Below are positions 16,190 to 39,483 of a DNA stretch of 64,000 nucleotides, piece by piece. The stretch is from assembly GCF_001908275.1 (NCBI RefSeq), contig NZ_CP018620.1, positions 6,448,001 through 6,512,000 on the forward strand, written 5' to 3'. The notes below the pieces were generated by a model. The model was not told where the DNA came from, did not search any database, and worked only from the letters and a program-made list of their open reading frames with translations. A program made the translations under genes and the position numbers. The DNA comes from Paenibacillus xylanexedens (GTDB lineage: Bacteria > Bacillota > Bacilli > Paenibacillales > Paenibacillaceae). The number at the start of each line of letters is the position of its first letter. Within the stretch, counting starts at the first letter, position 1.

Positions 16190-18973
16190 TCAGCGGCGCA
16201 AGCCGACAGTAACGATCTCGCATGAACCTGTCTGTATGTTCCATTCCTTGCTGGCAAATGATAATGTTGATGCCTCTTCTATGCTGTTGAGATGAAGTAT
16301 TTCGCCCTCTTCCTCCAGTATGTTGCTCTTGTACGCCGTTTCGAATGACTGTGCATTCGCTTGCGAAGCAGCAAGCTTCAACGTGGCAGAGTCGGTGGTC
16401 ATATTGAACCAGCGTAGCATGACATCGCCGGAATCCTCATTTACCTTGAGTGAGGAAAATGCTAAACCGTCTCCTTGCCATGCAAACGGTGTGTTGTTAG
16501 GTGTCAGATAACCCGTGTGTACTTCGGTTTGTGCCAGCGTCCAAGGAACCTGGAACTGATAGGCCTCGATATATGCACCTGACGCTGCACCATTGCCATC
16601 ATGCGGAATGATCTCGATCTGAAATGTATGTTCACCAAGGCATTGTGCTTCAGGTGTCGGGAACAAACCCCAGTCTCCGAGTTCGCCTACAGCACGAAGC
16701 AGCGTAACCGCGATGGTGTTGCGACCATCCTGAAGGACTTCATATTCATTCAGGCCCAGATTGGCAACGACCAATCCGGCGTCCTTTTCACTCACATCCA
16801 CAAAATTCTGTTGATGCTGTGTATTGCTTGGATTTTGCCACTCCGGTGCAGGCTTGTTATCACGCGTTGCAATTTCGAACATGGAATCCACATGATGAAC
16901 AGCAGATACAAGATCCGTTGGGAAAAGAGCACGCACCCGATGATCCTTCGCCTGATTGTTGAAGGTTGTTTCCATTTGTACTCCTTTTCCATTACAACTC
17001 AGTGATATCACTGTACGAATCTGGAGCGGAATCATTTTAGTTGAACGCTGGGCTTTGCGATGTGGATAATAAATCAGTTCTCGCTGTTCCTGATCCAGCA
17101 TCTCATCCGCAGACTCCGGTATTTCCCAATGATGAATCACTTCGAACGAGGCAGAGTACGATGTATCCTCAAGGATTCGAATCTCAGCCTGAAGTGCTTC
17201 AGTTGTCCGTGCCACTTCGTTCTCTGGCTGCTTGAACATGTATTCATTACCGATATCACCCACATTTTCGTACACGCCAAGGTCCTTATAAGTCCGGCCT
17301 GTTCGTTTGTCTGTGATTGTGAATGAACCGTTGTCTGCAATCGTGACGATCATATATTGATTTTCCATACCACGTTCACCACGCAACAGCGTAGTCGTTT
17401 TCGACGGAGTACCACTCTTAGCATCATCCGCAACGTTGACCAATGCATAGGTTTTCAGGCCAAATGCAGCTACATTCTCTGTTTCAAAACGAATACGAAC
17501 GCGCCGACAGCTATACGGTTGGCGGAAGCGATCATCCGGCAGATCATAGCCGAATTGCAGACCCAGATCCTCCACCGTACATGGAATGTGGTTACCATTT
17601 TCATCTACAAGTACGCGGTCTGACAGGTCAACGGCTTTCATCTGCGTCGCCATCTCTTCCAACGTATGTCCATCCCGGAAATACAACCGAGCCGCGTCCA
17701 GTTCCATCTGAACTACACCGCTGCGTTCCCAACCCGTTGTATTAAATACCACAACAGGTCGAGCCTGCTCGCCGTAACGCTCAAATATGGAGGTATCGAC
17801 AGCTGTAGTAATCTGGCTGGTGCTCTCTTCAATTAAAGCCTCTGCTACATGACGGCTCTTATCAAACCGTGTCACCATCTCGCGATGCACCTCGTCCACA
17901 CTGCATCCACAGATGCTGTCATGCGGGTGATTCTGCATCAGCGTTTTCCAGGCATAGGTCAGTTGATCATGTGGATAGGCATGCCCAAGCAGATAGGCAT
18001 AGGTTGCCAGGGGTTCAGCCACTTTTTCCAGGATCGTCTGGCCCAGCTGGTTCATCTGTTTCAGATACACACGAGCCGAAGCCGTGTTCACCAGAGTTCC
18101 CCAGCCATCGGTACGCTGGCTGCGCAGTTCGCCTTTGACCGTGGACAGTTCATGTTCAGACGATGCTCTCAAAGCTTCCAGATAATCCGGAAAGTTCGAG
18201 TGAATGAACTCGATATCGGGATACAATTGTTCAGCCATGCGAATAGCTTCTGGCAGGTCTCGCTGAATCGGTTGGTGATCACATCCGTTCATGTACAGCA
18301 GCTCATTGGTTGATGCATATTTCTCGGCATCTGCAAGCTTGGTTTCCCAGAACTTGCGGGCCGATTCCTCACCTACTGGAACTTCATTTCCGTTGGAGTA
18401 CCAGTTGGCAAACAATACGCCGAGCACTTTCGATCCGTCTGGTCCTTCCCACATCAGCTCCGAGAAGCTTGATTCATATCCGGCATCCGATACCGTATTA
18501 TTAAATCCCGTAGGCTTCACACCACGCCCAAAGAATACATTATCAATGCCTGATTGTTGCATCAGCTGCGGAGTCTGCCCAACCAATCCAAATGTATCGG
18601 GAAAGTAACCAATCTTCGAAGGGGTTCCATGACGCTTGGCGTCCTTATGTCCAACCTGCATGTTGCGCACATTGGCTTCTCCACTCGTCAGAAACGCATC
18701 CTGCAAGATGTACCATGGTCCAATCACAATCCGTCCATTGCGGATATGCTTCTCCAGTCGTTCCTTCTGCTCCGGGCGAACCTGAAGATAGTCATCGATG
18801 ATAATCGTTTGTCCATCCAAATAAAAGCTTTTATAGTCTGATCCTTCATCCAGCTGATCCAACAGTGAATCGACGAGCTGAACAAGACGCATATGATGCT
18901 TCTCATACGGCAAGTACCATTCCCGATCCCAGTGGGTATGCGAAATAATATGTGCTCTCTTTTTCTTGGTCAT
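16190..18973 (-). CDS. GH38 alpha-mannosidase (SpGH38/MngB-like)
   Basis: A 927-residue cytosolic retaining alpha-mannosidase. HTHWDREWY (residues 12-20) gives zinc-binding His and Asp. GYFPDTFG carries the nucleophile Asp126, and NHPHDSICGCSVDEVHREM the other zinc His. The N-terminal domain begins at once, as in the short bacterial type related to Streptococcus SpGH38 and E. coli MngB. No signal peptide. Its ATG overlaps the stop of the upstream gene by four bases (ATGA), so translation is coupled. In the locus it would remove alpha-1,3- or alpha-1,2-mannose from imported N-glycan fragments. Confidence 0.92.
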   Translation of the reverse strand: MTKKKRAHIISHTHWDREWYLPYEKHHMRLVQLVDSLLDQLDEGSDYKSFYLDGQTIIIDDYLQVRPEQKERLEKHIRNGRIVIGPWYILQDAFLTSGEANVRNMQVGHKDAKRHGTPSKIGYFPDTFGLVGQTPQLMQQSGIDNVFFGRGVKPTGFNNTVSDAGYESSFSELMWEGPDGSKVLGVLFANWYSNGNEVPVGEESARKFWETKLADAEKYASTNELLYMNGCDHQPIQRDLPEAIRMAEQLYPDIEFIHSNFPDYLEALRASSEHELSTVKGELRSQRTDGWGTLVNTASARVYLKQMNQLGQTILEKVAEPLATYAYLLGHAYPHDQLTYAWKTLMQNHPHDSICGCSVDEVHREMVTRFDKSRHVAEALIEESTSQITTAVDTSIFERYGEQARPVVVFNTTGWERSGVVQMELDAARLYFRDGHTLEEMATQMKAVDLSDRVLVDENGNHIPCTVEDLGLQFGYDLPDDRFRQPYSCRRVRIRFETENVAAFGLKTYALVNVADDAKSGTPSKTTTLLRGERGMENQYMIVTIADNGSFTITDKRTGRTYKDLGVYENVGDIGNEYMFKQPENEVARTTEALQAEIRILEDTSYSASFEVIHHWEIPESADEMLDQEQRELIYYPHRKAQRSTKMIPLQIRTVISLSCNGKGVQMETTFNNQAKDHRVRALFPTDLVSAVHHVDSMFEIATRDNKPAPEWQNPSNTQHQQNFVDVSEKDAGLVVANLGLNEYEVLQDGRNTIAVTLLRAVGELGDWGLFPTPEAQCLGEHTFQIEIIPHDGNGAASGAYIEAYQFQVPWTLAQTEVHTGYLTPNNTPFAWQGDGLAFSSLKVNEDSGDVMLRWFNMTTDSATLKLAASQANAQSFETAYKSNILEEEGEILHLNSIEEASTLSFASKEWNIQTGSCEIVTVGLRR

Positions 18974-21900: not shown

Positions 21901-22149
21901 GCCCTGATGCAAGTAAGCTGCAATCTCCGTCCAGGCGGACTTGGGAAAATAGGGTGCATGCAGATTGACCAGACATCCTTCACCTGCTGTAGTCTTCAAA
22001 GTCTCTGCGAGTTCTTCGGCGTTTACAACGGTGATCTCTTCGACTGCTTTCCATGTATTCAGGGCCTCCTGAGTTGGAGAAGCACCTTCCATTGGAAACG
22101 CAGGATCAGCGAAGATAATCAGCTTTTTATCATTAGGTTGGATACTCAT
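18970..22149 (-). CDS. Large clan-A glycoside hydrolase, GH42/GH164-like, candidate beta-mannosidase
   Basis: A 1059-residue cytosolic protein without a signal peptide. The first 250 residues form a GATase-like fold and a beta-rich region. A TIM barrel at about 385-750 contains WDLINEPSMF (acid/base Glu after Asn) and LIQETGIMY (candidate nucleophile Glu). A second Rossmann-like domain at about 790-880 resembles the GH42 trimerisation domain, and a beta domain ends it. The order resembles GH42 beta-galactosidases and GH164 beta-mannosidases but the match by eye is weak. It overlaps both neighbours by ATGA. In this locus a beta-mannosidase acting on Man-beta-1,4-GlcNAc would complete the pathway; that is inference. 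Confidence 0.6.
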   Translation of the reverse strand: MSIQPNDKKLIIFADPAFPMEGASPTQEALNTWKAVEEITVVNAEELAETLKTTAGEGCLVNLHAPYFPKSAWTEIAAYLHQGGSLISVGGAPFKRPVRYENGAWVVESEQTAYHQELYIHEALNVSSAGVQSYTSSEQLPLLTGKEGLFEKADTWNLVPHTTKTSDLPHQMGSSGPMSTQIYPLLCGMSKDGRSIAAPVVLWENSRGTFVGSRWMFVHLPLTTSFWTQDGAAEIVKWAQFCAQGVTELSLKTNYASYEPDERAVLTLQVQILQRAGNRLTESELWAFDITVEHEDRTSGTTEKVWSHRLEMELSGEQRFERILLPVSIESGLYRIICQAQAPDGEVRTLRQGFWGQDAALLAEGEVITRSRDYFVKDGRPLPVVGMTYMTSDVARKFLFLPNADVWDRDMAQMAKAGINWIRTGIWTAYRNMMQVDGHMAEDVLRAIDAFILTAKRHGLQVTFTFFSFTPETWEGTNPYLDPQSVEAQKRFIRSIVSRHTHTTHVDWDLINEPSMFDPMRIFSAGPRSARDSYEQQAYITWLEQRHQTIEALQEAWNMSPKQLPNFAAAVIPEPEEINFDVQDMHKAKKGTRWLDYCLFSMEMHNIWAGELVSTIKDIVPDHLVTVGQDEALGAQRPSPFFYEREVDYTTVHSWWLNDDLIWDGIFAKTPNKPNLIQETGIMYVETPDGRAKRTEEELRGILERKYAYAFSTGGAGAMQWIWNTNFYMDNANESHIGALRADGTEKPEADVSYDFGRFMHGIRDLFEDRELEDIAVVFPYSNDFSNRALAYDATIKLTRVMSYDLKLPFRALSEYHLEALEQQPPKLIIVPSPHNMDSDALHQLLTFTEKEGTSLLITGPLGLDAYWKATDRADHIVGKRSLGNVQREELLNINGVNHRVTYGRRRIAEVAKETLLHGDIGTPDEVHVLPLGKGKLIWTPLPLELNGRDEPLAELYRYATEIAGIEQELEWISGGDVAGIYGRKLSFPRGNLYVFVSEFALNHEVHVRDQRTGLSYAFQLEKNRSVLFATDASGKLTAVYRPDEVEIVQQDERGGITR

Positions 22150-23465
22150 AACAGGCCATCCTTCATGGATTTATAGACCAACTGGGAGAACAGGCTGTTG
22201 GACCATGCAAACCATTTTCGTGTAAAAATCGTCGGATCATCAGCGTGGAAGCCTTCATGCATATAACCTGTATCCGCATCCGTCGCTTCAAGCATGCGAA
22301 TAATCTCCAGTTTCTCCTCGGCAGACTGCGCAGTCAGTCCCTGCATGGATAAGCCCATATGCCAGATATAATCTGGTGGTGTGTGCGGGCTACCGATTCC
22401 TTTGGCAACCTTGCCCTCATAATAGAACGGGTTCTCTTTGCTCAGGGCAAAACGGCGCGTATTCTGGTAGATCGGATCATCCGCTGTGACGTAACCCAGA
22501 TATGGAATGGACATGAGTCCTGGTGTACCCGCATCGTCCATGAGACAGTGGTTGCCATAACCGTCCGTCTCGTACGCATAGATCGGTCCAAATTCGGGAT
22601 GACGATAAATCCCGTACAGCTGAATGCCGTGATCTACGTCCTGCTCCAGATCCTTCAATTCCTGCAAAAGTTCCATATCCCGGAACACCCACTCGGCAAA
22701 CTCCTGCATTTGGCGCAGAGCTACAACCGCGAACATGTTGCCAGGGATATTGTAGTGGAAATCACACGCATCATCACTGGAACGGAAACCGGACCAGATC
22801 ATACCCGTGTAGTTGACTGGCATGCCTTTTCCGTGATTGCGCAGGGAATCTGTTGGGATACCGTTATTGCGAGTGAAGCGATATGGAGATTGTTCCATGT
22901 GATGCTGTTCGACTTTGAACAGGTCCACAATTTTACGCATCGCTGCTTTGAAGCTTGAATCAAAAATGTCGGTCAGCTCGGTTTCCTTCCAATATAAATA
23001 AGCCAAACGTACAACAAAACATAATGAGTCAATCTCAAATTTGCGTTCCCACACCCAAGGCGACATCTCGGTCTCGTCCGTGGTATTCCAGTGCCAGTCA
23101 TTCGCCGTCTCATTGAAGGCATTGGCATAGGGATCGATGTGAACATATTGGATATGACGTTTGATCAGCCCACCAATGATGCGTTGCAGGTCCTCGTCTT
23201 CTTTTGCAAACGGAATGTAATGTACTACCTGCTCCACGGAATCACGCAGCCAGGAAGCCGGAATATCTCCTGTGATAACAAAAGTCGTACCGTCCTCCAT
23301 CAACTTGGTTGTTGTTTCGATAGTGTTGGGGAAGCAGTTTTTGAATAATTGAAGCAGTTTTGGTCGGTGAGCCAGTTTCTGTTCTGCTTCTTCGAGCACA
23401 GCCTGAATGGATTGTGGCAAAGCAACAGGTGGCATGGGTATTTTGGGTAATCTGAACTGTTCCAT
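22146..23465 (-). CDS. GH125 exo-alpha-1,6-mannosidase
   Basis: A 440-residue metal-independent inverting alpha-mannosidase of the (alpha/alpha)6 type. Family segments are visible: FVITGDIPASWLRDS, VHIDPYANAFNE, WERKFEIDSLC and CHTPPDYIWHMGL-like SPHTPPDYIWHMGLSMQ, and near the end ADTGYMHEGFH. GH125 enzymes from Streptococcus and Clostridium remove alpha-1,6-mannose from N-glycan cores. The start at 23465 (MEQFRLPKIP) follows AAGGAG at a long spacing; the frame is open to 23540. It leads a tightly coupled set GH125, clan-A GH, GH38. Confidence 0.92.
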   Translation of the reverse strand: MEQFRLPKIPMPPVALPQSIQAVLEEAEQKLAHRPKLLQLFKNCFPNTIETTTKLMEDGTTFVITGDIPASWLRDSVEQVVHYIPFAKEDEDLQRIIGGLIKRHIQYVHIDPYANAFNETANDWHWNTTDETEMSPWVWERKFEIDSLCFVVRLAYLYWKETELTDIFDSSFKAAMRKIVDLFKVEQHHMEQSPYRFTRNNGIPTDSLRNHGKGMPVNYTGMIWSGFRSSDDACDFHYNIPGNMFAVVALRQMQEFAEWVFRDMELLQELKDLEQDVDHGIQLYGIYRHPEFGPIYAYETDGYGNHCLMDDAGTPGLMSIPYLGYVTADDPIYQNTRRFALSKENPFYYEGKVAKGIGSPHTPPDYIWHMGLSMQGLTAQSAEEKLEIIRMLEATDADTGYMHEGFHADDPTIFTRKWFAWSNSLFSQLVYKSMKDGLL

Positions 23466-23545
23466 GGATGAGTGCAACTCCTTAAACAAATTGAATGGTG
23501 TAGCTATACAGGATGAAACAAAAAATTTACACGGGACCACTGCGC

Positions 23546-23720: not shown

Positions 23721-26700
23721 TTACCGCAGTAGCACGGTTTGTATTTGGTAAGGTTTAAAAGATAGTGTAATCTGGCCATTGGTATGGGCCAGTGGTTGGA
23801 CGGGTTCTTCCAGTGCATTGGAGTGGTACGCTTGCTCAAAGGCATGCGGCCATTGCAATGTGATGGTTTCGCGTTTGCCTGATGATTCATAGAAACGAAG
23901 GACTGTTCCGTGCCCCTCCTCTGCCATTTTGATCGTATCGAGAATGACGTGATTACTATTAAAGTTAATCCAGGAGCCTGTTGCTGGACGTACAGGTGCC
24001 GCATGAGTAGTTGCATCTGCGGTTGGATCGACTCCAGCTCCTAGACTTTGGTGTACTTGATGCCTCTGTTGTACCTGCTCCATCTGTTGCACTTGCTGCG
24101 ACTGTTGCCCTTGGTTCACCTGCTGTACCGTCACCTCATGATTCAGCTCGGCAGCCTGACGTACGGTGTGTGCAGTTCGCCAGTCTCCGTCATGCGGATA
24201 AAGGGAATAGGTGAATTCATGTTCTCCCAGATCGGCTGTACGATCAGGCCATTTGGGTGCACGCAGTAGGGACAAACGAATGGTACTTCCCTGCACGTCG
24301 TACCCATATTTGCAGTCATTGAGCAGGCTCACGCCGTATCCATATTCGGATACATCCGCGAAGCGATGTCCACAGACTTCATACTGGGCTTGCTCCCAGC
24401 TTGTGTTGCGATGTGTTGGACGTTCCAGTGCGCCAAATGGAATCTCAAATGTGGCCTTGGAGGTCACCACATCAATTGGGAAACCAACTTTCAGAAGTTT
24501 GTGATCTTCATTCCAGTTCACCTGTGTCTGGAAGTCAATTCGCCGTGAGTCATGATAAAAGACGATATCTTGTGTAATCACCGATTGATGAAGCTTCCAG
24601 CGGAAGCGCAAGACATCTTTCGTTGTACCCGCCAATACCAGCTTTTTCTCCAACAGTTCCACTTCGCCAGCAATCTGTTCTTCATAACGACTGTCGATAT
24701 CCCATGCATCCCAGAGCGTTGGTCGATCGTGGAAGAAGTGAAGTTGATTGCCACGTTCACCCGGCTTCAGCATCTCACGCTCCGCGGTTTTATCCCACAG
24801 GCGGATGATCTCCCCACGTTTGTTGAACTGCACATGATAAAAGGCGGTATCCCATGTATCATTAAAGGTTGATTGTGCGGCAAGGGTGGTCATTTCCCGT
24901 ACATTCGTTTCCCTTGTATTTTCCGGTACCAGCCAAATCGTCTTATATCCAAACGCCGGAATGTCTGTCACAAGAATAGACATGCTGCCATCCTCCCGAT
25001 CCATCCGCAAGCGCTGGCCCTCTTCATCAATGCCGTAACGATCAAAGCCATCCTGCACAGGAAGTTGAACGACTGCACTGCGTTTCCAGCCCAAGCTGTT
25101 GAATACAACATAGGCTACTGAACCTTCTGGCCCCTGTGTGTTGATACCCGTTGTCAATGCTGCAACGCCTTGATTCAATCCAGTTCTACCCAATTTAAAT
25201 ACCTGTACATATTCCTCATTTGAAGTCACGTAGGATTCCGTAATCGCCGATCCCGGTATAATATCGTGGAATTGATTCAGCAAAATTAATTTCCAGCCGT
25301 CATGCAGATTCGAACGTACTTCAGCTTCGGCGTCCGTCTCCATATCTGGTTGAGCAAGTGTATTCCACAGCTCAGCTTCACGATACAGAACCTCCGCTTT
25401 CCGATTGTTGCGCTTATTGCGCGCATGTGTCGTGTAGGTTCCCCGATGTAACTCCAGATACAGATCGCCATGCCACTTCGGAAGTACAGGTTGCTCCTTT
25501 TCAATTCCGGCAAAGAAAGCTCCAGCTGTGCTATAACGGCTCGCAGGCTGTCCAACCATCAGGTCTGCGCGATCCACATACTCCAGCATCTCGCGTGTTA
25601 CGCCACCGCCGCCATCTCCGTGTCCGTATAGAAGCATATGCTCCGGATGAGCCGCTTTCTCACGGTAGGACTGCCAGTGATCATGAATGTCCTTCGGCAG
25701 GGTGTGTTCGTTAACACCATGATTGAGGTAGGACAGGATCGGTGTGCCGTCAATACCCACCCAGTGGAAGAGATCATATGGAAACACATTTGTGTCATTC
25801 CATCCGAGCTTTGTTGTCATGAAATACTCCACATTGCCATGCTTCAAAATCTGCGGCAGGGAGGCACAGTACCCAAACGTATCCGGCAGCCATTCAATCT
25901 GTGATGTCTTGCCAAACTCCTCCATATAGAAACGCTGACCATATAACATCTGGCGAATCAGGGACTCCCCGCTTGGGATATTCAGATCGGGTTCAACCCA
26001 CATGCCGCCCACCAGCTCCCAGCGACCTTCTACAATCCGCTGCTTCACCCGCGCGTACAGCTCGGGATCATGCTCCTTCAGAAATGCATATAGTAAGGGT
26101 TGGCTCTGGGAATAAACATAGTCCGGATATTCATTCATGAGTGCATCCACGGTGGAGAAAGTACGGCTCGTTTTGCGTACCGTCTCACGTACAGGCCACA
26201 GCCAGGCAATATCAATATGGGATTGTCCTACCATATGCTCCAGACCTTCCGCGTTTCCGCCAATCTCACGCACATGATGCTTCAGATTATTTTCAATCTG
26301 ACGAATACCCTCTCCCTGCTCAATCTCTTCTGCTGACATGCCTACAAATTGATCCATCGCACGATACACCAGTTCTAACAGGCGAACCCGCCGAAAGTCA
26401 CTTTCCGGTAGCAACACAGCCGAATCACGGACAATAATGACGGTATACATCAGACTACGAACCGCTTCATTGGGTCTCACCAGCAAGCTCGTAATTGATG
26501 TGATTGGCGGCTGAATAACCGCCTGTTGATTCAACGGGTCTACAGGTTCAGGTACCGGATCAAACATCTCGATCTCCAGTTCTGGAGCGTTTCCGACTTT
26601 GGATGGATCAAGCGTGACGTAGGTATGATTGCGGTCAAGGCCCTGATAAGAGTTCCCATTTACCCGAAGCAAGCCTTCTCCGCCTGTCTCAAATACAAGC

Positions 26701-29367: not shown

Positions 29368-29403
29368 CAATCTGCATCTCTCCAATCCTATAACGTGATC
29401 CGA

Positions 29404-30324
29404 TTATTCTTTGACCGCGCCCACCGTCAGACCCTGTACGAAATAACGCTGGAAGAACGGATAAGCGAATATAATTGGCAACGTAGCAAGCACAACCATC
29501 GCCATTCGGGACGTATCCTGCGGAATGGACTGCATGGCTGCCAGACTCATCGAACTGTTAGCAGAGTTCTGCTGGATAAACTGGATGCTCGACTCAATCC
29601 GCATCAGCATGGATTGCAACGGTACCAAATTCGGATTATCGATGTATAATAACGCATTGAACCAATCATTCCAGTAACCGAGTGTACTGAACAACCCGAT
29701 GGTTGCAAGCCCCGGCAAGGAGAGTGGAACCACGATTTTCATAAAGGTATAGAACTCACCGGCGCCATCAATCTTCGCCGATTCAATGACTGCATCCGGT
29801 ACACTGGTGGAGTAGAATGTACGCAGGATCATAATATAGAAGGCATTCATCGCCAGCGGCAGAATCAGTGCCCATAACGTATCTTTCAACCCAAGCAGCT
29901 GGGATACGACCATATAGGTTGGAATCATCCCGCCGTTGAACAGCATGGTAAGAATTGCAAAGATGGAGAAAAATCTTCGATATCTGAAGCTCTTGCGGGA
30001 AACCGCATACGCATACAGCGACATGAGAATCAGACTGATGATGGTACCAAGTACCGTCACCAGGATGGTAACTCCATACGCCCGCAGCAGCGTGTCCCCA
30101 CTCTGCCAGACAAACTGATATGCCGCGAGACTCCATTCTGCCGGAATCAGACGATACCCATCACGGGCCAGTGCTTTCTCGTCTGTAAACGAGATGATAA
30201 CTACAAATATAAAAGGAAATACACAGATCAGAGCGAATAGACCGGCGATGATGTTCATGATCACGTTCCAGCCGCTGGATACGTGGTGGAAGTCGCGTTT
30301 TTTAACGAGCCTTGCTTGAGCCAT
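29404..30324 (-). CDS. Sugar ABC transporter permease, LplC/YtcP type
   Basis: A 306-residue inner-membrane permease with six hydrophobic segments and the ATPase-contact loop ESAKIDGAGEFYTFMKIVVP (EAA motif). The C-terminal end YFVQGLTVGAVKE is typical of the LplC/YtcP branch of CUT1 importers. AAAGGAG precedes the start. It lies between the GH3 gene and the second permease, in one operon. With the lipoprotein at 31355 it forms an importer like the N-glycan transporter Ngt of Streptococcus pneumoniae. Confidence 0.93.
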   Translation of the reverse strand: MAQARLVKKRDFHHVSSGWNVIMNIIAGLFALICVFPFIFVVIISFTDEKALARDGYRLIPAEWSLAAYQFVWQSGDTLLRAYGVTILVTVLGTIISLILMSLYAYAVSRKSFRYRRFFSIFAILTMLFNGGMIPTYMVVSQLLGLKDTLWALILPLAMNAFYIMILRTFYSTSVPDAVIESAKIDGAGEFYTFMKIVVPLSLPGLATIGLFSTLGYWNDWFNALLYIDNPNLVPLQSMLMRIESSIQFIQQNSANSSMSLAAMQSIPQDTSRMAMVVLATLPIIFAYPFFQRYFVQGLTVGAVKE

Positions 30325-30347: not shown

Positions 30348-31277
30348 CTAGAATAGGCTACTGTCTTTATCTACTTTGCGAACAACATAGTTGGAGATAA
30401 TAACAAGCACAAAGCCCACCACGGATTGATACAATCCCGCTGCTGTACTCATGCCAATCTCACCACTAGTTTTCAAACCTCGATATACATACGTATCAAT
30501 AACATTTGTCACGGAATAAAGCGTACCCGAATCCCTTGGCACCTGATAGAAGAGTCCAAAGTCGGCATAGAAAATGCGGCCTACGGCCAGCAAGGTCATA
30601 ATCGTGATGATGGGTGACAGCAACGGAATCGTAATATTGCGAATCTGCTGCCATTTGCTTGCTCCATCAATCATGGCTGCTTCATACAGTGATTTATCAA
30701 TTCCCAGTATGGAAGCCAGATAGACAACGCTGCTATAACCGATGGTTTTCCATAACGCTACGAATACCAGAATATACGGCCAATATTTCGCCTCAGAGTA
30801 CCACTGAATTGGTTCCATCCCAAACCAGCCGATAATCTGATTCAACATCCCGCGGTCCATGCTCAAGAAGCTGAATGCGAAGTAACCAACGATAACCCAG
30901 GATAGAAAATACGGCAGAAACATGCCGGTTTGATACAGTTTGGCGAGTCGTTTATTCACTAGTTCCGAGAGCAGGATTGCCAATGCCACAGCAAATACCA
31001 GTCCCAGGAAGATAATGGCGATGTTATAAAAGAGGGTGTTGCGTGTAATGAGCCATGCGTCACTTGTGCTGAACAGGAATTTGAAATTGTCCCAGCCAAC
31101 CCATTCACTCTTCATCAGACTTGCCCAGAACCCTTCACGGCTGAACCGATATTCTTTGAAAGCAGCCACTGTACCCACGAGTGGCAAGTAGGAGAAGAAG
31201 AAGAACCAGATGGCGCCTGGCAGCACCATGAGCAGCATGACTCGGTTTCTAATCAGGTTTTTCAAAAATGTAGTCAT
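30348..31277 (-). CDS. Sugar ABC transporter permease, LplB/YteP type
   Basis: A 309-residue permease with six transmembrane helices, the first being VMLLMVLPGAIWFFFFSYLP. The EAA motif is AAMIDGASKWQQIRNITIPL. This N-terminus and the ending NYVVRKVDKDSSLF mark the LplB/YteP branch. GAAGGAGG precedes the start. It is 23 bp upstream of the partner permease gene. No ATP-binding subunit is encoded anywhere in the locus, so a shared ATPase of the MsmX/MsmK kind is probably used. Confidence 0.93.
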   Translation of the reverse strand: MTTFLKNLIRNRVMLLMVLPGAIWFFFFSYLPLVGTVAAFKEYRFSREGFWASLMKSEWVGWDNFKFLFSTSDAWLITRNTLFYNIAIIFLGLVFAVALAILLSELVNKRLAKLYQTGMFLPYFLSWVIVGYFAFSFLSMDRGMLNQIIGWFGMEPIQWYSEAKYWPYILVFVALWKTIGYSSVVYLASILGIDKSLYEAAMIDGASKWQQIRNITIPLLSPIITIMTLLAVGRIFYADFGLFYQVPRDSGTLYSVTNVIDTYVYRGLKTSGEIGMSTAAGLYQSVVGFVLVIISNYVVRKVDKDSSLF

Positions 31278-31354: not shown

Positions 31355-32827
31355 TTACTTGTTTTCCGCTCTCCAGGCATCCAGCTGGCTTTGGGCTTCA
31401 GCCATTACTTTCTCCAGTCCGGCTTGATTGAACTTCTCAATCACTTGATCCAGATTGGCTGCCGGGTCCAATGTACCTGTCATCAGTGCTGCCCAATATT
31501 GCTCTTTCACGTTCTGTACCGCCGTCAGTTCGGACGATACATTGCTTGCATCAAAGTTAAAGCTGAGGATCGGGGAATTGACACCTTCAGCGTTAAACTT
31601 CTTGAACTCATCCCATTTGTTATCCGGGTCATTGCTGTTCAGATAGAGCAGCATGTTGTTCCCAAGGGAGTATGAAGGCATATCGTAGTTTTTCGATTCA
31701 GGCAGATTTTCCATATGCGTGTCATCCACTTTTTTGTAGTGTGTGCCCTCAATACCGGAGTCCACCATATTACGCAGCACAGGATCTGTATTGAGCAGGT
31801 TCAGGAATTCCATCGCTTTCTCCGGATATTCCGAGTTGGCCGAGATGGCCATGATGGAACCTTGTACAGATGTATTCGTTATAATTGCTTCACTTGCAGG
31901 TGTTGAAACGACTTGATAACCGTAACTTGCAGACCATTGATTGTCCGCGAGCGGCTGAGTCTGTGCACGATCCAGGAACCAGTTGCCCGATGTTGTCAGG
32001 TCGTTCGTGGAACCTGTTGTTGCCGCTTCTGCCGATACATAACCAGCCTTGTAGTATTTGTGCATTGTGGTAAGTGCTTCTTTCATTTCAGGTGTTTCCA
32101 GTATGTTTACAAGCTTATAGTCTGTTGTATCCAGCTTGATTGCCATTGGCAGATTCTGAATGACATAGTCATAAGGCACGTAAGGAACATAGTTTTTATC
32201 CATGGCAAATGGTGTTACACTCGCCTCGTTTTCCTTAATTGTTTTGAGCAGAGGCTCCAGACTGTCTAACGTACGAACGCCAGAGATGTCCAGCTTGTAT
32301 TTATCAACCAGCATTTGGTTAAAGCGCCATACCTCTTGTTGTGGCAACTCTTTGTTGGCTGGAATTCCGTAATTGTGTCCATCTACCTTGGAACCGCTGA
32401 GGAATGCAGGATCGATGGTCTTGGTAAGATCCTGACCGTATTCAGCAAGCAGGTCATCCAGTTCGAGGAATGCACCTTTTCTGGCATTTTGTACATAATC
32501 GAATCCACCAGAAGAAGTGAACAGAATGTCCATTGGCTCACCGGATGCTACGTTAACCTGCATCTTCTGCGGGTAGTCACCCCAGTCAACCATCTTCATC
32601 GTTACCGTGGCATTAATTTTCTCTTTGGTATACTTGCTCACTTCTTCCATCACTTTGTTGACGTCTTTCTGAGGGGTACCGATGGTATACCAGATCAACT
32701 CTACCGCGTCATCTCCAGCTCCCCCCGATTCTGAAGCATCTTTGCTTCCTCCACAGGCACTAAGAACAAGTGTAACGGCCATTAACAATGCAAGAACGAG
32801 TGAGAAGCGTTTTCTTTGTTTACTCAT
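31355..32827 (-). CDS. Extracellular solute-binding lipoprotein, LplA/NgtS type
   Basis: A 490-residue lipoprotein. The signal peptide FSLVLALLMAVTLVLSACGG has the lipobox LSAC with a Cys near residue 25, so the protein is anchored to the outer face of the membrane. The mature part reads as a type 1 extracellular solute-binding protein (DAVELIWYTIGTPQKDVNKV at its start). It presents captured oligosaccharide to the two permeases encoded just downstream. The size and class match the lipoproteins that bind complex oligosaccharides such as N-glycans. GGGAGG precedes the start. Two cre-like sites and an inverted repeat lie upstream. Confidence 0.92.
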   Translation of the reverse strand: MSKQRKRFSLVLALLMAVTLVLSACGGSKDASESGGAGDDAVELIWYTIGTPQKDVNKVMEEVSKYTKEKINATVTMKMVDWGDYPQKMQVNVASGEPMDILFTSSGGFDYVQNARKGAFLELDDLLAEYGQDLTKTIDPAFLSGSKVDGHNYGIPANKELPQQEVWRFNQMLVDKYKLDISGVRTLDSLEPLLKTIKENEASVTPFAMDKNYVPYVPYDYVIQNLPMAIKLDTTDYKLVNILETPEMKEALTTMHKYYKAGYVSAEAATTGSTNDLTTSGNWFLDRAQTQPLADNQWSASYGYQVVSTPASEAIITNTSVQGSIMAISANSEYPEKAMEFLNLLNTDPVLRNMVDSGIEGTHYKKVDDTHMENLPESKNYDMPSYSLGNNMLLYLNSNDPDNKWDEFKKFNAEGVNSPILSFNFDASNVSSELTAVQNVKEQYWAALMTGTLDPAANLDQVIEKFNQAGLEKVMAEAQSQLDAWRAENK

Positions 32828-32892
32828 TTCTTTGATCCTCCCTTTTCGTGTTCCCTTAGGCTCTACTTACTAACTGCTTTAACCTTATCGAA

Positions 32893-32906
32893 TGAAAGCA
32901 TTTACA
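32893..32906 (-). promoter_or_regulatory. cre-like CcpA site upstream of the importer operon
   Basis: On the minus strand TGTAAATGCTTTCA matches the cre consensus TGWAANCGNTNNCA except for T in place of C at the centre. It lies 66 bp upstream of the lipoprotein start, just downstream of a possible promoter (TTGTAC, 16 bp, TATCTT). Confidence 0.5.
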
Positions 32907-32932
32907 AAAAGAAGATAAACTTAAGTTTTCGA

Positions 32933-32977
32933 GGTACAAATTAAAGAGAAATCGTCCTTGGGCAACTATTTTGTACC
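32933..32977 (-). promoter_or_regulatory. Inverted repeat upstream of the importer operon
   Basis: GGTACAAA (32933-32940) and TTTGTACC (32970-32977) are perfect inverted copies with centres about 37 bp apart. This is a possible binding site for the AraC-type response regulator encoded next door. Confidence 0.4.
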
Positions 32978-32998: not shown

Positions 32999-33001
32999 TG
33001 A

Positions 33002-33108: not shown

Positions 33109-34623
33109 TTAACCAAACACCTTGAAATCAGTCGGTGAAATCCCCACATATTTGCGGAACTGTTTATAGAAATACCCCGTCTCCCAATACCCTACATTTC
33201 GGGCGATCTCATGTACCTTCAGATTGGAATTGCGTAGTTGCTCCTTCGCACGTTCAATCCGGTATTTGTTGATATATTCGGCAAACGTCTCCCCTGTCTC
33301 CTTATGGAACAATTGTCCCAAATAGACCGGATGCAGATGATAATGGGCACCCAATAGCTTCAAGGAGAGCTCTTCTGCGTAGTGTTTGTCGATATGCTGA
33401 AGCACCTGGTTCACAATCGGATTTTTCAAATCCTGCAATAGGGATTGGATGGTCTGTGACCCAACCTGCTGAAGTGCCAGCACGAGCTCATCAAAAGTGC
33501 CACTGTCCAGCACAAGTTGAAGCCCCTGTTGGTATATCGCAGACTCATCCGAGTGTTTGATGCTTTCCAGCTCCATTTTGAAGCGAATCACAACTTCCAA
33601 TGCGGTGTTCTGTAACTCCCCAGGTGTAAGCCCATCGCGATGCTGTTCAAAATCCATGCGAATCCGGTCGGCAAGTTGTTCTGTATTGCGGGACAGAATG
33701 AGTTTGGCATACTCCCTCCATTCAATGAAAAAGGTCGCCGTTGAATTTCCGCACCTTTCCAACATGGCATGGTCGATCACTTTAAGGTCGGGATAAATCA
33801 TCACATACTGGAGTGCTTTTTTGGCCTCCGCATAACTGGTCGGCGCTTGGTATAACCCTTTCATCAATCTGCCTGCTCCAATGCGTGCCGCCGGATGGGT
33901 TACGGTTATCTCATCAGATAATGCCTGCAAGCCATCCATCAACTTCTGTTCCTCGTCACTCGTACCCTGAATATTGGCAATAATGACGATGTCTCCATCG
34001 ATATCATGAAATACGTTCAGATGGCGTCTGTCTCTAAGCATCTCTTCTACACGTTCAAACATACCGGGTACTTGTCCTTTGTCACGTAGAATGGCCACAG
34101 CAACGTCCGGTGCATCCAGCGAAAGGTTCATAAACTGGGCGCGTTCTTCAAATTCAGTAGCTGCAATCTGTCCCGTAAGCCATCGATGAAGAATGTTATC
34201 TTTCAGAATCTGGATGCCATACGCATCATCGGCTTGAGGTGATACCATATGATCCAGCTTGGACGCGGTGTTGCTCAGCGTGGATTCCAGTTCCTCTACA
34301 TTAATCGGTTTGAGCAGATAGTTTTCGATCCCCAATTGCATGCCTTCCTTCAGATATTCGAACTCATTGAAACCACTCAGGATAATGACCTTAATCTCAG
34401 GTTGTACACGCCTTGCTTCCCGAATCAGATCGAGACCATTCATGAGTGGCATGGATATATCCGTAATCAGAATGTCCACAGGCTGAGAAGAGAGCGCCTG
34501 TAACGCTGCTTGCCCATTACCTGCATGACTCACAATTTCCATACCAAATGAAGACCAATCCACAATATCGTATAAACCTTCAATGATGAATGGCTCATCG
34601 TCCACAATAAACACCTTGTACAT
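33109..34623 (-). CDS. AraC-type response regulator, YesN family
   Basis: A 504-residue cytosolic regulator. The receiver domain at 1-120 has FIVDDEP, the phospho-acceptor in ILITDISMP and the LLKPIN lysine. A long linker follows. The last 100 residues are two AraC helix-turn-helix motifs (LGAHYHLHPVYLGQLFHKET and ARNVGYWETGYFYKQFRKY). Its ATG comes one base after the stop of the sensor kinase gene, so the two are translated together. Regulators of this family activate nearby sugar-import and glycoside hydrolase genes. The start at 34623 (MYKVFIVDDEP) is chosen over an extended frame to 34683 that overlaps the kinase gene. Confidence 0.93.
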   Translation of the reverse strand: MYKVFIVDDEPFIIEGLYDIVDWSSFGMEIVSHAGNGQAALQALSSQPVDILITDISMPLMNGLDLIREARRVQPEIKVIILSGFNEFEYLKEGMQLGIENYLLKPINVEELESTLSNTASKLDHMVSPQADDAYGIQILKDNILHRWLTGQIAATEFEERAQFMNLSLDAPDVAVAILRDKGQVPGMFERVEEMLRDRRHLNVFHDIDGDIVIIANIQGTSDEEQKLMDGLQALSDEITVTHPAARIGAGRLMKGLYQAPTSYAEAKKALQYVMIYPDLKVIDHAMLERCGNSTATFFIEWREYAKLILSRNTEQLADRIRMDFEQHRDGLTPGELQNTALEVVIRFKMELESIKHSDESAIYQQGLQLVLDSGTFDELVLALQQVGSQTIQSLLQDLKNPIVNQVLQHIDKHYAEELSLKLLGAHYHLHPVYLGQLFHKETGETFAEYINKYRIERAKEQLRNSNLKVHEIARNVGYWETGYFYKQFRKYVGISPTDFKVFG

Positions 34624-34624
34624 G

Positions 34625-36454
34625 TTAAACACCTGTCCCTTCTGTATGTGGATAACGCACCCTGATCCGTGTTCCTTCTCCAAGGGTACTCTCTATGGTG
34701 ATACCGAACTCTGGCCCGTACAGGAAGCGCAATCGACTATGGACACTGCGCAGCCCAAACATCTGACCAGACTCTTCAGGACGTTCCAGTTCTTCAAGGA
34801 TTTCCGTCAGGCGTGCCGGATCAATGCCTTTGCCATTATCTTTGACTTCCACTTGCACCACATCATCTGTCTCTTCCACAACAATCGATAATCGGTTATC
34901 CGAACGTTCTGTCTGAATGCCGTGTACGACATAGTTCTCAATGATGGGTTGCAGCGAAAGTTTCACCACCGGGTGTTGATAATAAGCAGCGTCGATCTGG
35001 ATCGTATATATAAAAATATCCTTGTAGCGGATTCGGAATAACTCCAGATACAAACGGCAAGCTTCCATCTCATCCTTCAGCGTATAATTTTTCTTCTGCT
35101 GTACCAGGCTCTTGAACAATACGGATAGACTATAGATCATCTCGCCAACATCTCTCGCCCCCTGGGATATGGCCCTCATCCGAATCACCTCAAGTGTATT
35201 GTAGAGAAAGTGAGGATTGATACGCGCCTGTAATGCAACCAGCTCGGTCTCCTTCTGTTTGATCTCGGCTTTGTAGACCCGTTCAATATACAGATTCAGC
35301 TCGTCCAGCATGTCGTTGAAGCTATGTGAGATCTGCCCCAGTTCATCATCACGCGGATCGTCGATGCGAGCCGTGAAGTTGCCGTATTTTACTTTCTGGG
35401 TGAAGCGAATAATTCGACGGGTTCGTTTGGCAAAGTTAATAATGAAAAATGCCGGAACCAGCACGGCAAACAAAATACATACGATACTGATCGAGATAAT
35501 GGTATTGCGAATGCCCGCATAGGTTTCAGCCATCTCTTCTACCGGAACGGTGCCAATGACCACATACCCCTGATCGGCGGAGACAAACTTGTTCACGTAC
35601 ATGTTCTGCTCCTTTTTCATTGAATCCATATCCGTCTGATCAAACAGGGAATCGGCCACATTCACGTAGGGATACTTCTTCCCGTAATAATGATTGTTGG
35701 AGTCAAATAACACTGTCCCTTTCGCCGATAACACCACGATGTCTCCCTTGAGATTACTCTCGTAGTTATCCAGCGCATTACCGATTCCTTCTGAGTCAAA
35801 GAAGACAAGAAATTGGCCCAGATTCCGAAGAGTCTGTGTATTGTTAATCGGTACGCGGATGGAGTAGAGCGCAGGGTCCCATTGATTAATCTCTTTGCGA
35901 ATCCAGTAGTTGGGTGCACTGATATTGGGCGTTTCCATCGCCATCACGTCCGGAATATAGGAATGAGCTACATTGGCGTCCAGCTTGCGGAACTGCTTGT
36001 GTTGATTAAAGGTAGACAGATCCTGCTGTTCGGCGCTATACAACATGAGTTGATTAATCTGCGAATTGCGATCCATAATATTTTGAAAATGTTTCAATAC
36101 ATCGGCCGAATAGTCATCCTGATTGGCGTAATATCCATTGGTCATGTGCTGAACATATTCAGCGTACGAATGATTCATCAGGTACGTAATGTTGGCGGAC
36201 AGCGCCTCATTCTGATGCATGTCCCTCACCATGTTTTGTACCGATTCATACTGCTGATGAATGTACCGGTCCACATGTTCCATCGCCGCTTTCTGGATCG
36301 CCAGTTCCCGGCGAATCGTGGAGTCGGACACCGACAGGAAGATGATATAAGACAATGTAATGATCGTGACAATGGATATCATCGAGAAAATCAGGAGCAT
36401 TTTCATAAACATATTATTTTTGAAGAAATTATTGTAAACGCTAACAATTTTCAA
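34625..36454 (-). CDS. Sensor histidine kinase, YesM family
   Basis: A 609-residue membrane sensor. Two transmembrane helices (about 18-40 and 320-345) enclose an extracellular sensing domain of about 280 residues. Then come HAMP, the YesM-type phospho-acceptor segment QARINPHFLYNTLE, and an ATPase domain with QPIIENYVVHGI, DNGKGID and FGLRSVHSRL. Translation starts at a TTG (36454) ten bases after GGAGGG. An ATG lies in between in another frame and reads only six codons, which could lower initiation. It likely senses glycan or glycan-loaded lipoprotein outside the cell. Confidence 0.93.
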   Translation of the reverse strand: MKIVSVYNNFFKNNMFMKMLLIFSMISIVTIITLSYIIFLSVSDSTIRRELAIQKAAMEHVDRYIHQQYESVQNMVRDMHQNEALSANITYLMNHSYAEYVQHMTNGYYANQDDYSADVLKHFQNIMDRNSQINQLMLYSAEQQDLSTFNQHKQFRKLDANVAHSYIPDVMAMETPNISAPNYWIRKEINQWDPALYSIRVPINNTQTLRNLGQFLVFFDSEGIGNALDNYESNLKGDIVVLSAKGTVLFDSNNHYYGKKYPYVNVADSLFDQTDMDSMKKEQNMYVNKFVSADQGYVVIGTVPVEEMAETYAGIRNTIISISIVCILFAVLVPAFFIINFAKRTRRIIRFTQKVKYGNFTARIDDPRDDELGQISHSFNDMLDELNLYIERVYKAEIKQKETELVALQARINPHFLYNTLEVIRMRAISQGARDVGEMIYSLSVLFKSLVQQKKNYTLKDEMEACRLYLELFRIRYKDIFIYTIQIDAAYYQHPVVKLSLQPIIENYVVHGIQTERSDNRLSIVVEETDDVVQVEVKDNGKGIDPARLTEILEELERPEESGQMFGLRSVHSRLRFLYGPEFGITIESTLGEGTRIRVRYPHTEGTGV

Positions 36455-36576
36455 TTCGCATGTTCCCTCCGATGCTGTTTTCCTGACTTGAATTATACCA
36501 TCAGGCTTCTGACATTAACTTGTCACCTGCAACTTTTCTTTAGTTTATATCTGTGTTTCTTTAATTTCACCCTATT

Positions 36577-36590
36577 TAAAAACGCTTTCA
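36577..36590. promoter_or_regulatory. cre site upstream of the GH85 gene
   Basis: Read on the minus strand, TGAAAGCGTTTTTA is a close match to the CcpA cre consensus. It lies 77 bp before the GH85 start, in the region shared with the divergent sensor kinase gene. Confidence 0.6.
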
Positions 36591-36666: not shown

Positions 36667-39483
36667 ATGACACGCAAACTCAAACGAAAAGCCCTCATTC
36701 CCAAGGTAACCGCCATGATCCTGACTACGGCTCTGCTTGGACAAGTTGTTGCATCATCCGTTTATGCCGGAGACACGCTCCCTTACACCGGTGAAAGTGC
36801 CAAAGGGGTGAATCAGCCCTATCAACATGGATACACCTCGGCCCAGATTCTGAACTGGACACCGGAAAGTGATATCCATGGCGATTTACTTCGTGCCCAT
36901 GTTCCCTTGCAGCCCCGTAATGAAGCGTTCGCTGCCACACAGGCTTATCCTGAGCTTAGTCCGGACACCCAGTTATTCACAATGAGTGGCGATTACGGCA
37001 ATGCATTCTTCGATAGCACACCTTATACCAATGAATTCAGCCAGTATCTATTTAATTATTGGCAATATACAGACTACTACAGCTATTGGCACGGCATGGC
37101 CTCTGCGGGAGTACCTGAGGAGCTGTACGATCCGAGTAAAGAGTGGACGGAGAAATACTTCGAGTTTGGCATTTTGAACATTCCGAATCCGGCCTACACC
37201 AATGCAGCCCACAAGAACGGCGTTAAGTCCATTGCTAACATCTTTTTCTCGGACAATGACCGTGGCCCACAAACCTATAAACAAATGCTGATCCAGGATG
37301 AAAACGGTAATTTTCCTGTGGCCGAGAAATTGGCCGAGATGGCAGAATACTACAACTACGATGGATATTTCTTCAATCAGGAAGAAGTTGCCCGGGGTGT
37401 AGCCCCTGAAGATATCGCATCCTACAAGAAATTCATGAAATATCTAAGAGATAAAGGCCTGTACGTTCAGTGGTATGATTCCACCATCAATACAACAGGC
37501 AAAATTCAATACCAGAACCAATTCAATGGGCTCAACAGCCCCTTTGTACAAGATTCCGTTCTCGGCAGAGTCTCGGATTCCATCTTCCTGAACTATGTGT
37601 GGAACCACAAGATGCTCCGCGACTCCCGTGATCATGCCCTTAGCCTGGGACTGGATCCACTGGAAACCGTATTTGCTGGTGTCGAAGGTGGACATGACAA
37701 ATTCGGCCGCTGGAAGCAATCCTATGACCTGCGCCATAACCTGGATGAGAACGGTCAACCCATGAACAGCATCGCGACATTAGGTGCCGACTTCACCCAC
37801 AACGCTCTGGATGAAGAGATGGGCGATGGCAGCACCAATCATCGTGCGGAAGATGAGTACCAGTGGATGACCTTTGTACGTGATCGTGCCTGGTGGTCTG
37901 GTCCAAATCAAGACCCGACAGATGCACGTCGTAATGCGTCTGCCGATCTGTTGGATGTGTATGCTTCCGGTGCAAATTGGGATGGAATCGCCGCTTATCT
38001 TACCGAGCGATCCGTCATCAACGGCTCCAATTTTGCGACCAACTTCAATACGGGCCACGGCCTGAAATATTATGAAGACGGGGCTGTCTCGAACGATAAA
38101 GAATGGTCAAATATCAACATTCAGGATATCCCTATCACTTGGCAATGGTGGATGGATAGTGAAGGAGACCAGCTCAGTGTTGATTTTGACTATGGTCCCT
38201 CTTATGAGAAAGGCGCAAGGTACAACTATGACTCCATTGGTGCGTTTAATGGCGGCAGCTCTCTCGTGGTGAACGGCACACTGAACGCGGAGAACTTCCT
38301 GCGCCTGTACAAGACCGACCTGTCCGTCAACGGACAATCGAAACTGGAACTGACGTATAACAAACCGTCGACTAGTGACGCTTCCTCCCTGCATGTTGGG
38401 TTGATCTTCGAAGATGATCCATTCAACGTGGTCAATGTGGAAGTGCCTCAGTCAGGCCAGCATACTACAGGTTGGAAGACAACTTCGCTGGATTTGAGTG
38501 CATATCATGGCAAAACCATTGCCGCTATGGGATTATCCTTCGACCCGAATGGCAAGGAGATTGAGAATTACCAGATGAATATAGGCGAGATCCGTATGTC
38601 CGACGGTTCAGCGGCTGTACCGGATGCACCGACCGGATTCCATATTGCCAAAGCACTGACCAACACCGATGAACTGGTTGTTGCATGGGACATGAAGGAC
38701 TATTCAGAGGTCAAACAATACAATTTATATGAAAATGGTGCCTATGTTGGCGGCGTGTATGATTCCACTTTTTATATCAAATCGCTAAAACAGCCTTCTG
38801 GTGAACTGTCCATTCGTGCTGTTGGTGCAGATGGTACCGAAAGTGAAGCAACCGTCCTGCCTTACGATCTGAATACAGCTGTTCAGAATATTGATGTGAA
38901 ATTCAAAAAGAATGGCGATGCTATTGTAAGCTGGAAAAACCCGAAAAAAACGAAAGATACGGGCAAAGATAAAGATAAGAATACCGGTAAAGACAAGGAT
39001 AAAAATAAAGACAAAGGTAACGAGTCAATTCAGCTCACACTAGAAACAGAATACACAAAAGAGCCCTTCACCAAGTCGCTTCAGGTCAAAAAAGGAAAAC
39101 AATCTGCCGTCCTGACCGGACTTCCGACCAACGGTGAGCATTACGTGCTGAACATCGCCATTGGCGGGCAGAACCCGGTAACCCATACCGGACAGCTCGC
39201 AGATCTTCAGATTACACCATACGCCAAGGAAAAGGTCACGGTAAAAGATGGAAAGTACACATTGGCCCTCCCGGATCTGGAGGACTGGTACAAGATCTAT
39301 GTATATGAAAACGGGGTGCCACGCGAGTTCGGAGTCACTTACGTTTCGCAGAAATTCCCGTATATCATTCGGGGAAGAACAAAGCTGAGCGAACTGACTT
39401 TCACGCCAGCTTCCAGCAACAGCTCTTTGAAGCTGGTCATTGAGGATTATGCAGGCAATCAGGCCAGTACGATTTTGAGGTAA
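36667..39483 (+). CDS. Secreted GH85 endo-beta-N-acetylglucosaminidase (ENGase)
   Basis: A 938-residue secreted enzyme that cuts between the two core GlcNAc residues of N-linked glycans. The signal peptide ends near VVASSVYAGD. The GH85 barrel shows DGYFFNQEE with Asn237 and Glu239 as the catalytic pair, plus YVQWYDS, FLNYVW and FAGVEGG. The catalytic part is followed by a jelly-roll domain (about 485-645) and fibronectin-like segments. A Lys/Asp-rich linker lies at about 759-783. No LPXTG sorting signal. It is the only glycoside hydrolase of the 16-39 kb locus with a signal peptide, so it is the extracellular step. GAAGGAGG precedes the start and a terminator follows. Confidence 0.94.
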   Translation: MTRKLKRKALIPKVTAMILTTALLGQVVASSVYAGDTLPYTGESAKGVNQPYQHGYTSAQILNWTPESDIHGDLLRAHVPLQPRNEAFAATQAYPELSPDTQLFTMSGDYGNAFFDSTPYTNEFSQYLFNYWQYTDYYSYWHGMASAGVPEELYDPSKEWTEKYFEFGILNIPNPAYTNAAHKNGVKSIANIFFSDNDRGPQTYKQMLIQDENGNFPVAEKLAEMAEYYNYDGYFFNQEEVARGVAPEDIASYKKFMKYLRDKGLYVQWYDSTINTTGKIQYQNQFNGLNSPFVQDSVLGRVSDSIFLNYVWNHKMLRDSRDHALSLGLDPLETVFAGVEGGHDKFGRWKQSYDLRHNLDENGQPMNSIATLGADFTHNALDEEMGDGSTNHRAEDEYQWMTFVRDRAWWSGPNQDPTDARRNASADLLDVYASGANWDGIAAYLTERSVINGSNFATNFNTGHGLKYYEDGAVSNDKEWSNINIQDIPITWQWWMDSEGDQLSVDFDYGPSYEKGARYNYDSIGAFNGGSSLVVNGTLNAENFLRLYKTDLSVNGQSKLELTYNKPSTSDASSLHVGLIFEDDPFNVVNVEVPQSGQHTTGWKTTSLDLSAYHGKTIAAMGLSFDPNGKEIENYQMNIGEIRMSDGSAAVPDAPTGFHIAKALTNTDELVVAWDMKDYSEVKQYNLYENGAYVGGVYDSTFYIKSLKQPSGELSIRAVGADGTESEATVLPYDLNTAVQNIDVKFKKNGDAIVSWKNPKKTKDTGKDKDKNTGKDKDKNKDKGNESIQLTLETEYTKEPFTKSLQVKKGKQSAVLTGLPTNGEHYVLNIAIGGQNPVTHTGQLADLQITPYAKEKVTVKDGKYTLALPDLEDWYKIYVYENGVPREFGVTYVSQKFPYIIRGRTKLSELTFTPASSNSSLKLVIEDYAGNQASTILR

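Follow-up and report, generated by a model that had tools for sequence, protein, structure and literature searches.

What do eleven closely packed genes for glycosidases, an importer and a two-component system harvest in the chromosome of Paenibacillus xylanexedens, and which of their products could split the last, beta-linked mannose of an N-glycan core? Both questions are raised by a 64,000-nucleotide stretch of this genome (NZ_CP018620.1, positions 6,448,001 to 6,512,000), hereafter the window. Our preferred reading, to which we assign a probability of roughly 0.7, is that the genes make up a system of the EndoD/Ngt type for harvesting N-glycans, with a clan-A glycoside hydrolase (GH) of unassigned family as predicted core beta-mannosidase and an operator shared by the secreted endoglycosidase and the importer. 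We favor N-glycans because the closest solved relative of the binding lipoprotein is NgtS, because the ordered gene set recurs in another genus, and because a paired site stands before both the importer and GH85. The streptococcal-type system itself is already known; what would be new here is the candidate beta-mannosidase and the common operator.

Proposed cleavage, uptake and trimming of N-glycans

The 11 genes lie at positions 16190-39483 of the window, in a 7.10-Mb genome assembled as two contigs, and none has internal stops. The minus strand carries, in order, kinase, regulator, lipoprotein, two permeases, GH3, GH38b, GH125, clan-A enzyme and GH38a, and GH85 diverges on the plus strand. 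The features, in window coordinates, are as follows.

16190..18973, minus strand: GH38 alpha-mannosidase (GH38a), with Pfam GH38 domains
18970..22149, minus strand: clan-A glycosidase, candidate core beta-mannosidase, with putative acid/base E513 and nucleophile E679
22146..23540, minus strand: GH125 exo-alpha-1,6-mannosidase (Pfam PF06824, 522 bits)
23721..26936, minus strand: second GH38 (GH38b), of the yeast Ams1/cytosolic type (Pfam GH38, 277 bits)
26941..29385, minus strand: GH3 of the beta-xylosidase/beta-glucosidase type (Pfam GH3 N, C and Fn3)
29404..30324, minus strand: ATP-binding cassette (ABC) permease P2 (PF00528)
30348..31277, minus strand: ABC permease P1 (PF00528)
31355..32827, minus strand: NgtS-like solute-binding lipoprotein (SBP_bac_1 and DUF3502; PDB match to NgtS)
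32892..32906, plus strand: cre-like catabolite repression site, one mismatch
32917..32946, minus strand: predicted response-regulator operator, 90 bp before the importer operon, exact pattern match
33109..34683, minus strand: response regulator with AraC-type DNA-binding domain (PF00072, PF17853, PF12833)
34625..36454, minus strand: sensor histidine kinase (PF06580, PF02518, PF00672; His_kinase and HAMP)
36538..36567, plus strand: second operator copy, 100 bp before GH85, exact pattern match
36576..36590, plus strand: cre-like site before GH85, motif match
36667..39483, plus strand: secreted GH85 endo-beta-N-acetylglucosaminidase, catalytic pair N237/E239 (PF03644, 230 bits)

Gene positions and Pfam matches, which exceed the curated cut-offs for the 11 genes (weakly, and to GH42, for the clan-A protein), confirm the block and its families as a first-pass annotation had described them from the letters alone.

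In the pathway that we propose, the secreted GH85 would cleave between the two core GlcNAc residues of glycoprotein N-glycans, and the lipoprotein and two permeases would take up Man(n)GlcNAc, a shared ATPase encoded elsewhere being assumed. Inside the cell, GH38b, GH125 and GH38a would remove alpha-mannose, the clan-A enzyme would then split Man-beta-1,4-GlcNAc into mannose and GlcNAc, and GH3 might remove a further beta-linked sugar such as core xylose. The kinase and regulator would sense the glycan and induce GH85 jointly with the import operon by presumed binding to paired CTTWARTTT sites. If this is true, a genus that is common in soil and in association with plants feeds on the sugars of glycoproteins by means of a complete set that has so far been known mainly from bacteria of the gut and airways.

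The activity proposed for GH85 is suggested by its family and its catalytic pair. The PF03644 domain scores 229.7 bits against a cut-off of 22.2, the PDB matches are to EndoD (E 8.3e-54) and the EndoA-type chain 3fha (E 2.7e-53), and N237/E239 (N-Q-E) aligns with both chains at the Asn-x-Glu that is the catalytic pair of GH85 enzymes. Signal peptides were called from hydropathy and inspection by eye. The N terminus of GH85 resembles a signal peptide and is the most hydrophobic of the glycosidases (1.87), with four others between -0.20 and 0.95; GH125 as called reaches 1.34, but this stretch precedes what is probably the true start, an ATG 25 codons in. The earlier claim that only GH85 among the glycosidases carries a signal peptide thus fits the hydropathy, with the GH125 case hanging on that start codon. 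The binding protein carries a lipobox.

Import of Man(n)GlcNAc by the lipoprotein and permeases would follow from likeness to NgtS, whose structures (PDB 5swa/5swb) are the closest solved relatives of the lipoprotein (E 4.5e-83). The genome encodes five DUF3502 proteins, and none of the other four matches NgtS as well as this lipoprotein (36%, E 1e-91; runner-up 34%, E 2e-75). NgtS has been crystallized with Man5GlcNAc, with Trp386 stacking on Man-GlcNAc (PMC5215778). In our alignment Trp81 of NgtS is Trp in the lipoprotein and Trp386 is Tyr, but this check does not discriminate, and so tells against leaning on it, as Trp81 also occurs in two of the four paralogues and an aromatic residue stands at 386 in every one of them. 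A second NgtS-like binding protein (G000:C1 3218272-3219831; L096 8273-9832), 39% to the first, has its own permeases and two-component genes, and BLAST found nothing related to the window's glycosidases in the 20 kb examined around it.

For the alpha-mannosidases, solved structures give close matches. Those of GH38a are bacterial GH38 enzymes (3lvt, E 2.6e-284; 2wyh, E 1.5e-255), the latter being Streptococcus pyogenes SpGH38, described as active on alpha-1,3 and alpha-1,6 linkages (PMC6160142). GH125 matches 2nvp/6rqk (E 5.5e-156), one entry being named alpha-1,6-mannosidase, and GH38b matches Ams1 (7vqo, E 1.4e-147). Whole-genome Pfam searches at E 0.001 returned neither GH92 (3 of 14 control genomes positive) nor GH20 (4 of 14); no such search was made for sialidases. 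Pneumococcal EndoD is reported to be inactive on glycans bearing alpha-1,2-mannose, an external GH92 acting first (PMC5215778). With no GH92, alpha-1,2-mannose would need tolerance by GH85 and removal inside the cell, for which the Ams1-type GH38b is a candidate. Cytosolic removal of all mannoses, as the first-pass annotation had it, is supported for the alpha-mannosidases; the last, beta-linked mannose lies beyond GH38 and GH125, and the clan-A enzyme had been given no role. Its view that the system is specialized for high-mannose glycans fits the genome-wide lack of GH20 and is otherwise not established, as the best structural matches of GH3 leave xylose-bearing glycans possible.

The likeness to the pneumococcus is one of function. 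In Streptococcus pneumoniae, TCS07 controls EndoD, NgtS-P1-P2, GH38 and GH125, and it is co-localized with them in several other streptococci (PMC7075642), so two-component control is not the distinguishing feature that it had been taken for. External GH85, an NgtS-type importer, internal GH38 and GH125 and two-component control are common to the pneumococcal EndoD/NgtS-P1-P2/CPL/TCS07 system and the window (PMC5215778, PMC7075642). The pneumococcus has a CPL with GH38, GH125, GH92 and GH20 and uses GH92 externally, in contrast to the window's genome, where neither GH92 nor GH20 was found, the lack of GH92 being a difference that the first-pass annotation had passed over; by analogy, the locus is one that works like the pneumococcal system without being the same locus type. 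The window adds the clan-A enzyme, with everything in one locus, and the Ams1-type GH38 and GH3, the two differences that the annotation had rightly named. The pneumococcal degradation model, as laid out in PMC7075642, stops at ManGlcNAc.

A candidate core beta-mannosidase

We consider it fairly probable, from sequence and model, that the clan-A enzyme cleaves Man-beta-1,4-GlcNAc to mannose and GlcNAc. The proposal rests on its overlap with two mannosidase genes, the conservation of this arrangement, and a lean of fold and profile toward beta-mannosidases. The gene overlaps GH125 and GH38a by 4 bp each, and in 73 of 80 named loci it lies between them. In aligned fold and in sequence profile the 1059-residue protein is nearest to the GH164 beta-mannosidase, although only about 12% of the aligned residues are identical. 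The model shows a clan GH-A barrel with E513 after the strand at 506-512 and E679 ending the strand at 675-679 (strands 4 and 7), and both residues are invariant in 55 sequences.

With GH164 Bs164 of Bacteroides salyersiae and GH5 Op5Man5 the enzyme has in common a GH42-like barrel and a trimerization-like domain, and with Bs164 also a C-terminal sheet domain and the catalytic Glu on strands 4 and 7 (from the model, for the clan-A enzyme). It differs from both in an extra N-terminal part of about 360 residues and in its alpha-mannosidase neighbors; GH164 loci have been interpreted as beta-mannan loci (PMC7105311). A parallel in logic is offered by the GH38/GH5_18 loci of Cutibacterium acnes and Bifidobacterium, where alpha-mannose is described as removed in the cytosol and a dedicated Man-beta-1,4-GlcNAc mannosidase sits beside GH38 (PMC6160142, PMC10154615, PMC8233224); those bacteria use GH5_18, whereas the window's candidate is a multidomain protein of a different lineage. 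The relevant passages of a 2023 review give cleavage of this bond for GH2, GH5_18 and GH130 only (PMC10154615). The two GH130 genes of the genome are located in a GH113 beta-mannan-type locus.

Several results weigh against a beta-mannosidase. The GH164 profile match (E 1.3e-5) covers only profile positions 793-940, the domain after the barrel, and Foldseek with the model ranks GH42 beta-galactosidases first (E 1e-22). Pfam likewise assigns GH42 at 28.1 bits, above the cut-off of 21, although over 92 residues only, and beta-galactosidase is the NCBI name of most named homologues. Taken at face value, these matches would describe a GH42-like beta-galactosidase, in a locus that trims galactose-bearing complex or hybrid glycans and leaves the Man-GlcNAc bond to an enzyme encoded elsewhere, an account that we regard as improbable. 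NCBIfam gave no match, and the best single-sequence PDB match has an E value of 0.11.

The gene appears confined to its own family of bacteria: 6 of 398 genomes of the phylum carry it, all Paenibacillaceae, as do 177 of the 295 genomes of that family searched. Homologues 95-96% identical occur in Paenibacillus strains, including ones named P. amylolyticus, P. xylanexedens and P. polymyxa. A bolder proposal, which we offer tentatively and at slightly less than even odds, is that the enzyme founds a Paenibacillaceae-only GH family that solved Man-beta-1,4-GlcNAc cleavage independently of GH2, GH5_18 and GH130, as part of a widespread Paenibacillus N-glycan regulon marked by the tandem CTTWARTTT operator, which some unlinked GH85 genes carry as well. 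Were the beta-mannosidase assignment true, a family now labeled beta-galactosidase would act as a beta-mannosidase on the N-glycan core and could serve as a tool enzyme.

The predicted operator

Alignment of upstream regions from the window and 13 relatives revealed the directly repeated motif CTTWARTTT-N12-CTTWARTTT, which stands 90 bp upstream of the binding-protein gene and again 100 bp upstream of GH85. Eight of the 13 relatives have exact copies in the two positions. Exact matches in the 7.1-Mb genome number two, both in this locus. With up to two mismatches, 0.02 are expected within the window; genome-wide that tolerance gives no enrichment (14 against 37 for the backward control), so that the exact form alone is informative. 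Together with the Asn-x-Glu pair and the NgtS-like importer, the same site before both genes supports the earlier idea of a secreted endoglycosidase and import. The predicted half-site, CTTTAATTTG, resembles by eye CT-W6-AG, the candidate RR07 motif proposed from pneumococcal endoD (PMC11034029), from which the window's operator differs in that two copies stand in tandem, with a period of 20 or 21 bp.

Beyond close relatives, CTTTADTTT-N11-CTTWARTTT (at least 16 of 18 positions) precedes the binding-protein gene in 33 of 38 loci whose regulators are less than 60% identical, with about 0.03 in shuffles for that gap. An exact search of 42 of the 50 named clan-A genomes turned up 28 sites, and the backward control 4. 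Assigned by hand, 19 belong to the binding-protein gene, 4 to a linked GH85 and 1 to an unlinked GH85 (G311), 3 lie beside the kinase and 1 elsewhere. The pattern acquired its D at position 6 and its 11-base gap only once distant loci had been viewed, which makes the 33/38 count and the 19 importer sites partly circular.

We also scanned regions before GH85 genes: 17 of 33 unlinked places in the named genomes (L128 known beforehand, 16 blind), and 20 hand-picked genes each from clan-A-bearing and clan-A-less genomes. Sense sites occurred in 5/17, 4/20 and 0/20, respectively, and antisense sites in 0/17, 1/20 and 5/20 (the last in L145, L146, L153, L158 and L156). The clan-A-bearing total is 9/37 sense sites (at least 16 of 18 positions), 599-696 bases from the GH85-side end of the region, and shuffles gave none. 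Counted in sense only and leaving out L128, the contrast is 8/36 versus 0/20 (Fisher 0.021, descent ignored). The antisense sites occupy much the same position in the GH85 promoter as the sense ones, and four of the five regions are homologous (87-93% identical). All 9 sense-site genes are of a lower-scoring, window-like GH85 class, and 18 of the 20 clan-A-less genes are of a higher-scoring class; because the two sets differ in this way, GH85 class and genome type are confounded.

Part of this evidence counts against an operator specific to the system. The pattern was fitted on the window and its near relatives, and when both orientations are counted (10/37 versus 5/20) the sense-only contrast is lost, so that the site may be a general feature of GH85 promoters. 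In three genomes with no GH85 match (G301, G302 and G305; L125, L126 and L127) the second site persists upstream of the kinase gene; it may be a relic of a lost GH85 or a site that serves the kinase gene as well. Nevertheless, its presence in GH85 promoters of several genera supports, at the level of sequence, joint regulation of GH85 and importer in genomes where each of them carries the site. The predicted operator would then be a handle on which GH85 genes elsewhere belong to the same pathway.

A further layer of control is suggested by cre-like motifs, of which the window holds 10 matches, spread over 7 places, where 3.07 matches would be expected. Three, at 32892-32906, 36432-36446 (inside the start of the kinase gene) and 36576-36590, lie near the two operators and suggest glucose repression of the locus.

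Conservation, rival substrates and surroundings

The grouping of the genes is not chance, because linkage within the genus is nearly complete and the full ordered set stands in another genus. A comparison of clusters, as the first-pass annotation had proposed, found GH85 in 29 and the clan-A gene in 33 of 44 genomes of the window's genus; all 29 GH85 genomes carry both, 15.6-18.8 kb apart in 28 of them (the 29th could not be placed). In G013, of another genus, all 11 genes lie on one strand in the same order, from GH85 and kinase through to GH38a. Its 1712-residue GH85 (L098 1215-6353) has S-layer and Ig-like domains and is probably surface anchored, unlike the window's enzyme. Among the best 80 of 227 named clan-A loci, 76 hold GH125, the clan-A gene and GH38a, adjacent in that order in 73, and both permeases are recognized in 73. 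GH38b and GH3 form an optional module of the locus: 33 loci hold GH38b, 32 of these also hold GH3, and GH3 was seen in no others.

Two other substrates have to be weighed, and the distribution of GH85 bears on both. By coordinates, GH85 stands at the locus in 9 of the 50 named clan-A genomes, and 19 gave no match to it; since the core of clan-A, GH125 and GH38 genes exists without GH85, its substrate need not come from GH85, which speaks against our reading. GH38 and GH125 also serve in yeast mannan use (PMC10154615), and the locus could on this basis be meant for fragments of fungal alpha-mannan or mannoprotein, or for alpha-mannosides of another kind, with GH85 a passenger in the genus. We think this quite improbable: an NgtS-like binding protein stands in the locus, neither GH76 nor GH99 is among the 11 genes, the operator is common to GH85 and importer and recurs before some unlinked GH85 genes, and the alpha-fucosidase genes beside a four-genome variant of the core fit core-fucosylated N-glycans. 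The other substrate concerns the module, which might suit the core system to xylosylated glycans of plant or mollusc type rather than plain high-mannose ones, with GH3 as a beta-1,2-xylosidase. The two best PDB matches of GH3 are beta-xylosidases (7zb3, E 4.5e-174), a GH3 beta-1,2-xylosidase of Bacteroides massiliensis is reported to work on plant N-glycans (PMC9522356), GH3 is found in 32 of 33 GH38b loci, and GH85 is linked in 9/20 loci with the module and 0/30 without (linkage by hand from coordinates; the Fisher test ignores descent). But the NCBIfam score for the beta-glucosidase BglX (575 bits) nearly equals that for beta-xylosidase/arabinosidase (589 bits), both under cut-off, and the 2023 review, where it treats the subject, has no GH18 or GH85 described as acting on plant N-glycans (PMC10154615). 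We therefore hold the xylosylated-glycan role of the module to be unlikely, and for GH3 the matches hint weakly at some additional beta-linked sugar, perhaps the core xylose.

The four-genome variant (L037, L046, L054 and L060) has GH29 fucosidase genes beside GH125 and the clan-A gene, two in three of the loci and one recognized in L060; GH38a is also present, except that it was not found in L060. These loci further encode a transglutaminase-core protein of about 880 residues without obvious signal peptide. Pfam tests covered GH29 in L037 and, in both L037 and L060, the transglutaminase domain; the remaining assignments are by clustering. PNGases have a transglutaminase-type fold, and an internal glycopeptide deglycosylase is a conceivable role for this protein.

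The cluster and about 9 kb more sit between dnaI and a dnaB-like gene (window 14976-16019 and 48864-50399; DnaB_2 21.6 bits, just below the cut-off of 22), genes that are neighbors in other genomes. In two relatives the dnaB-like gene adjoins the kinase end of the cluster, and in a third it is one open reading frame (ORF) away. Beside GH85 lies an AMP-binding ligase gene (39627-41205), in two frames here (345 and 149 residues) and a single 525-residue ORF in relative L100. Past the cluster are two genes resembling extracytoplasmic function sigma factors, with sigma-70 region 2 and 4 domains (42596-43687 and 46458-47681), for which we saw no relation to the locus.

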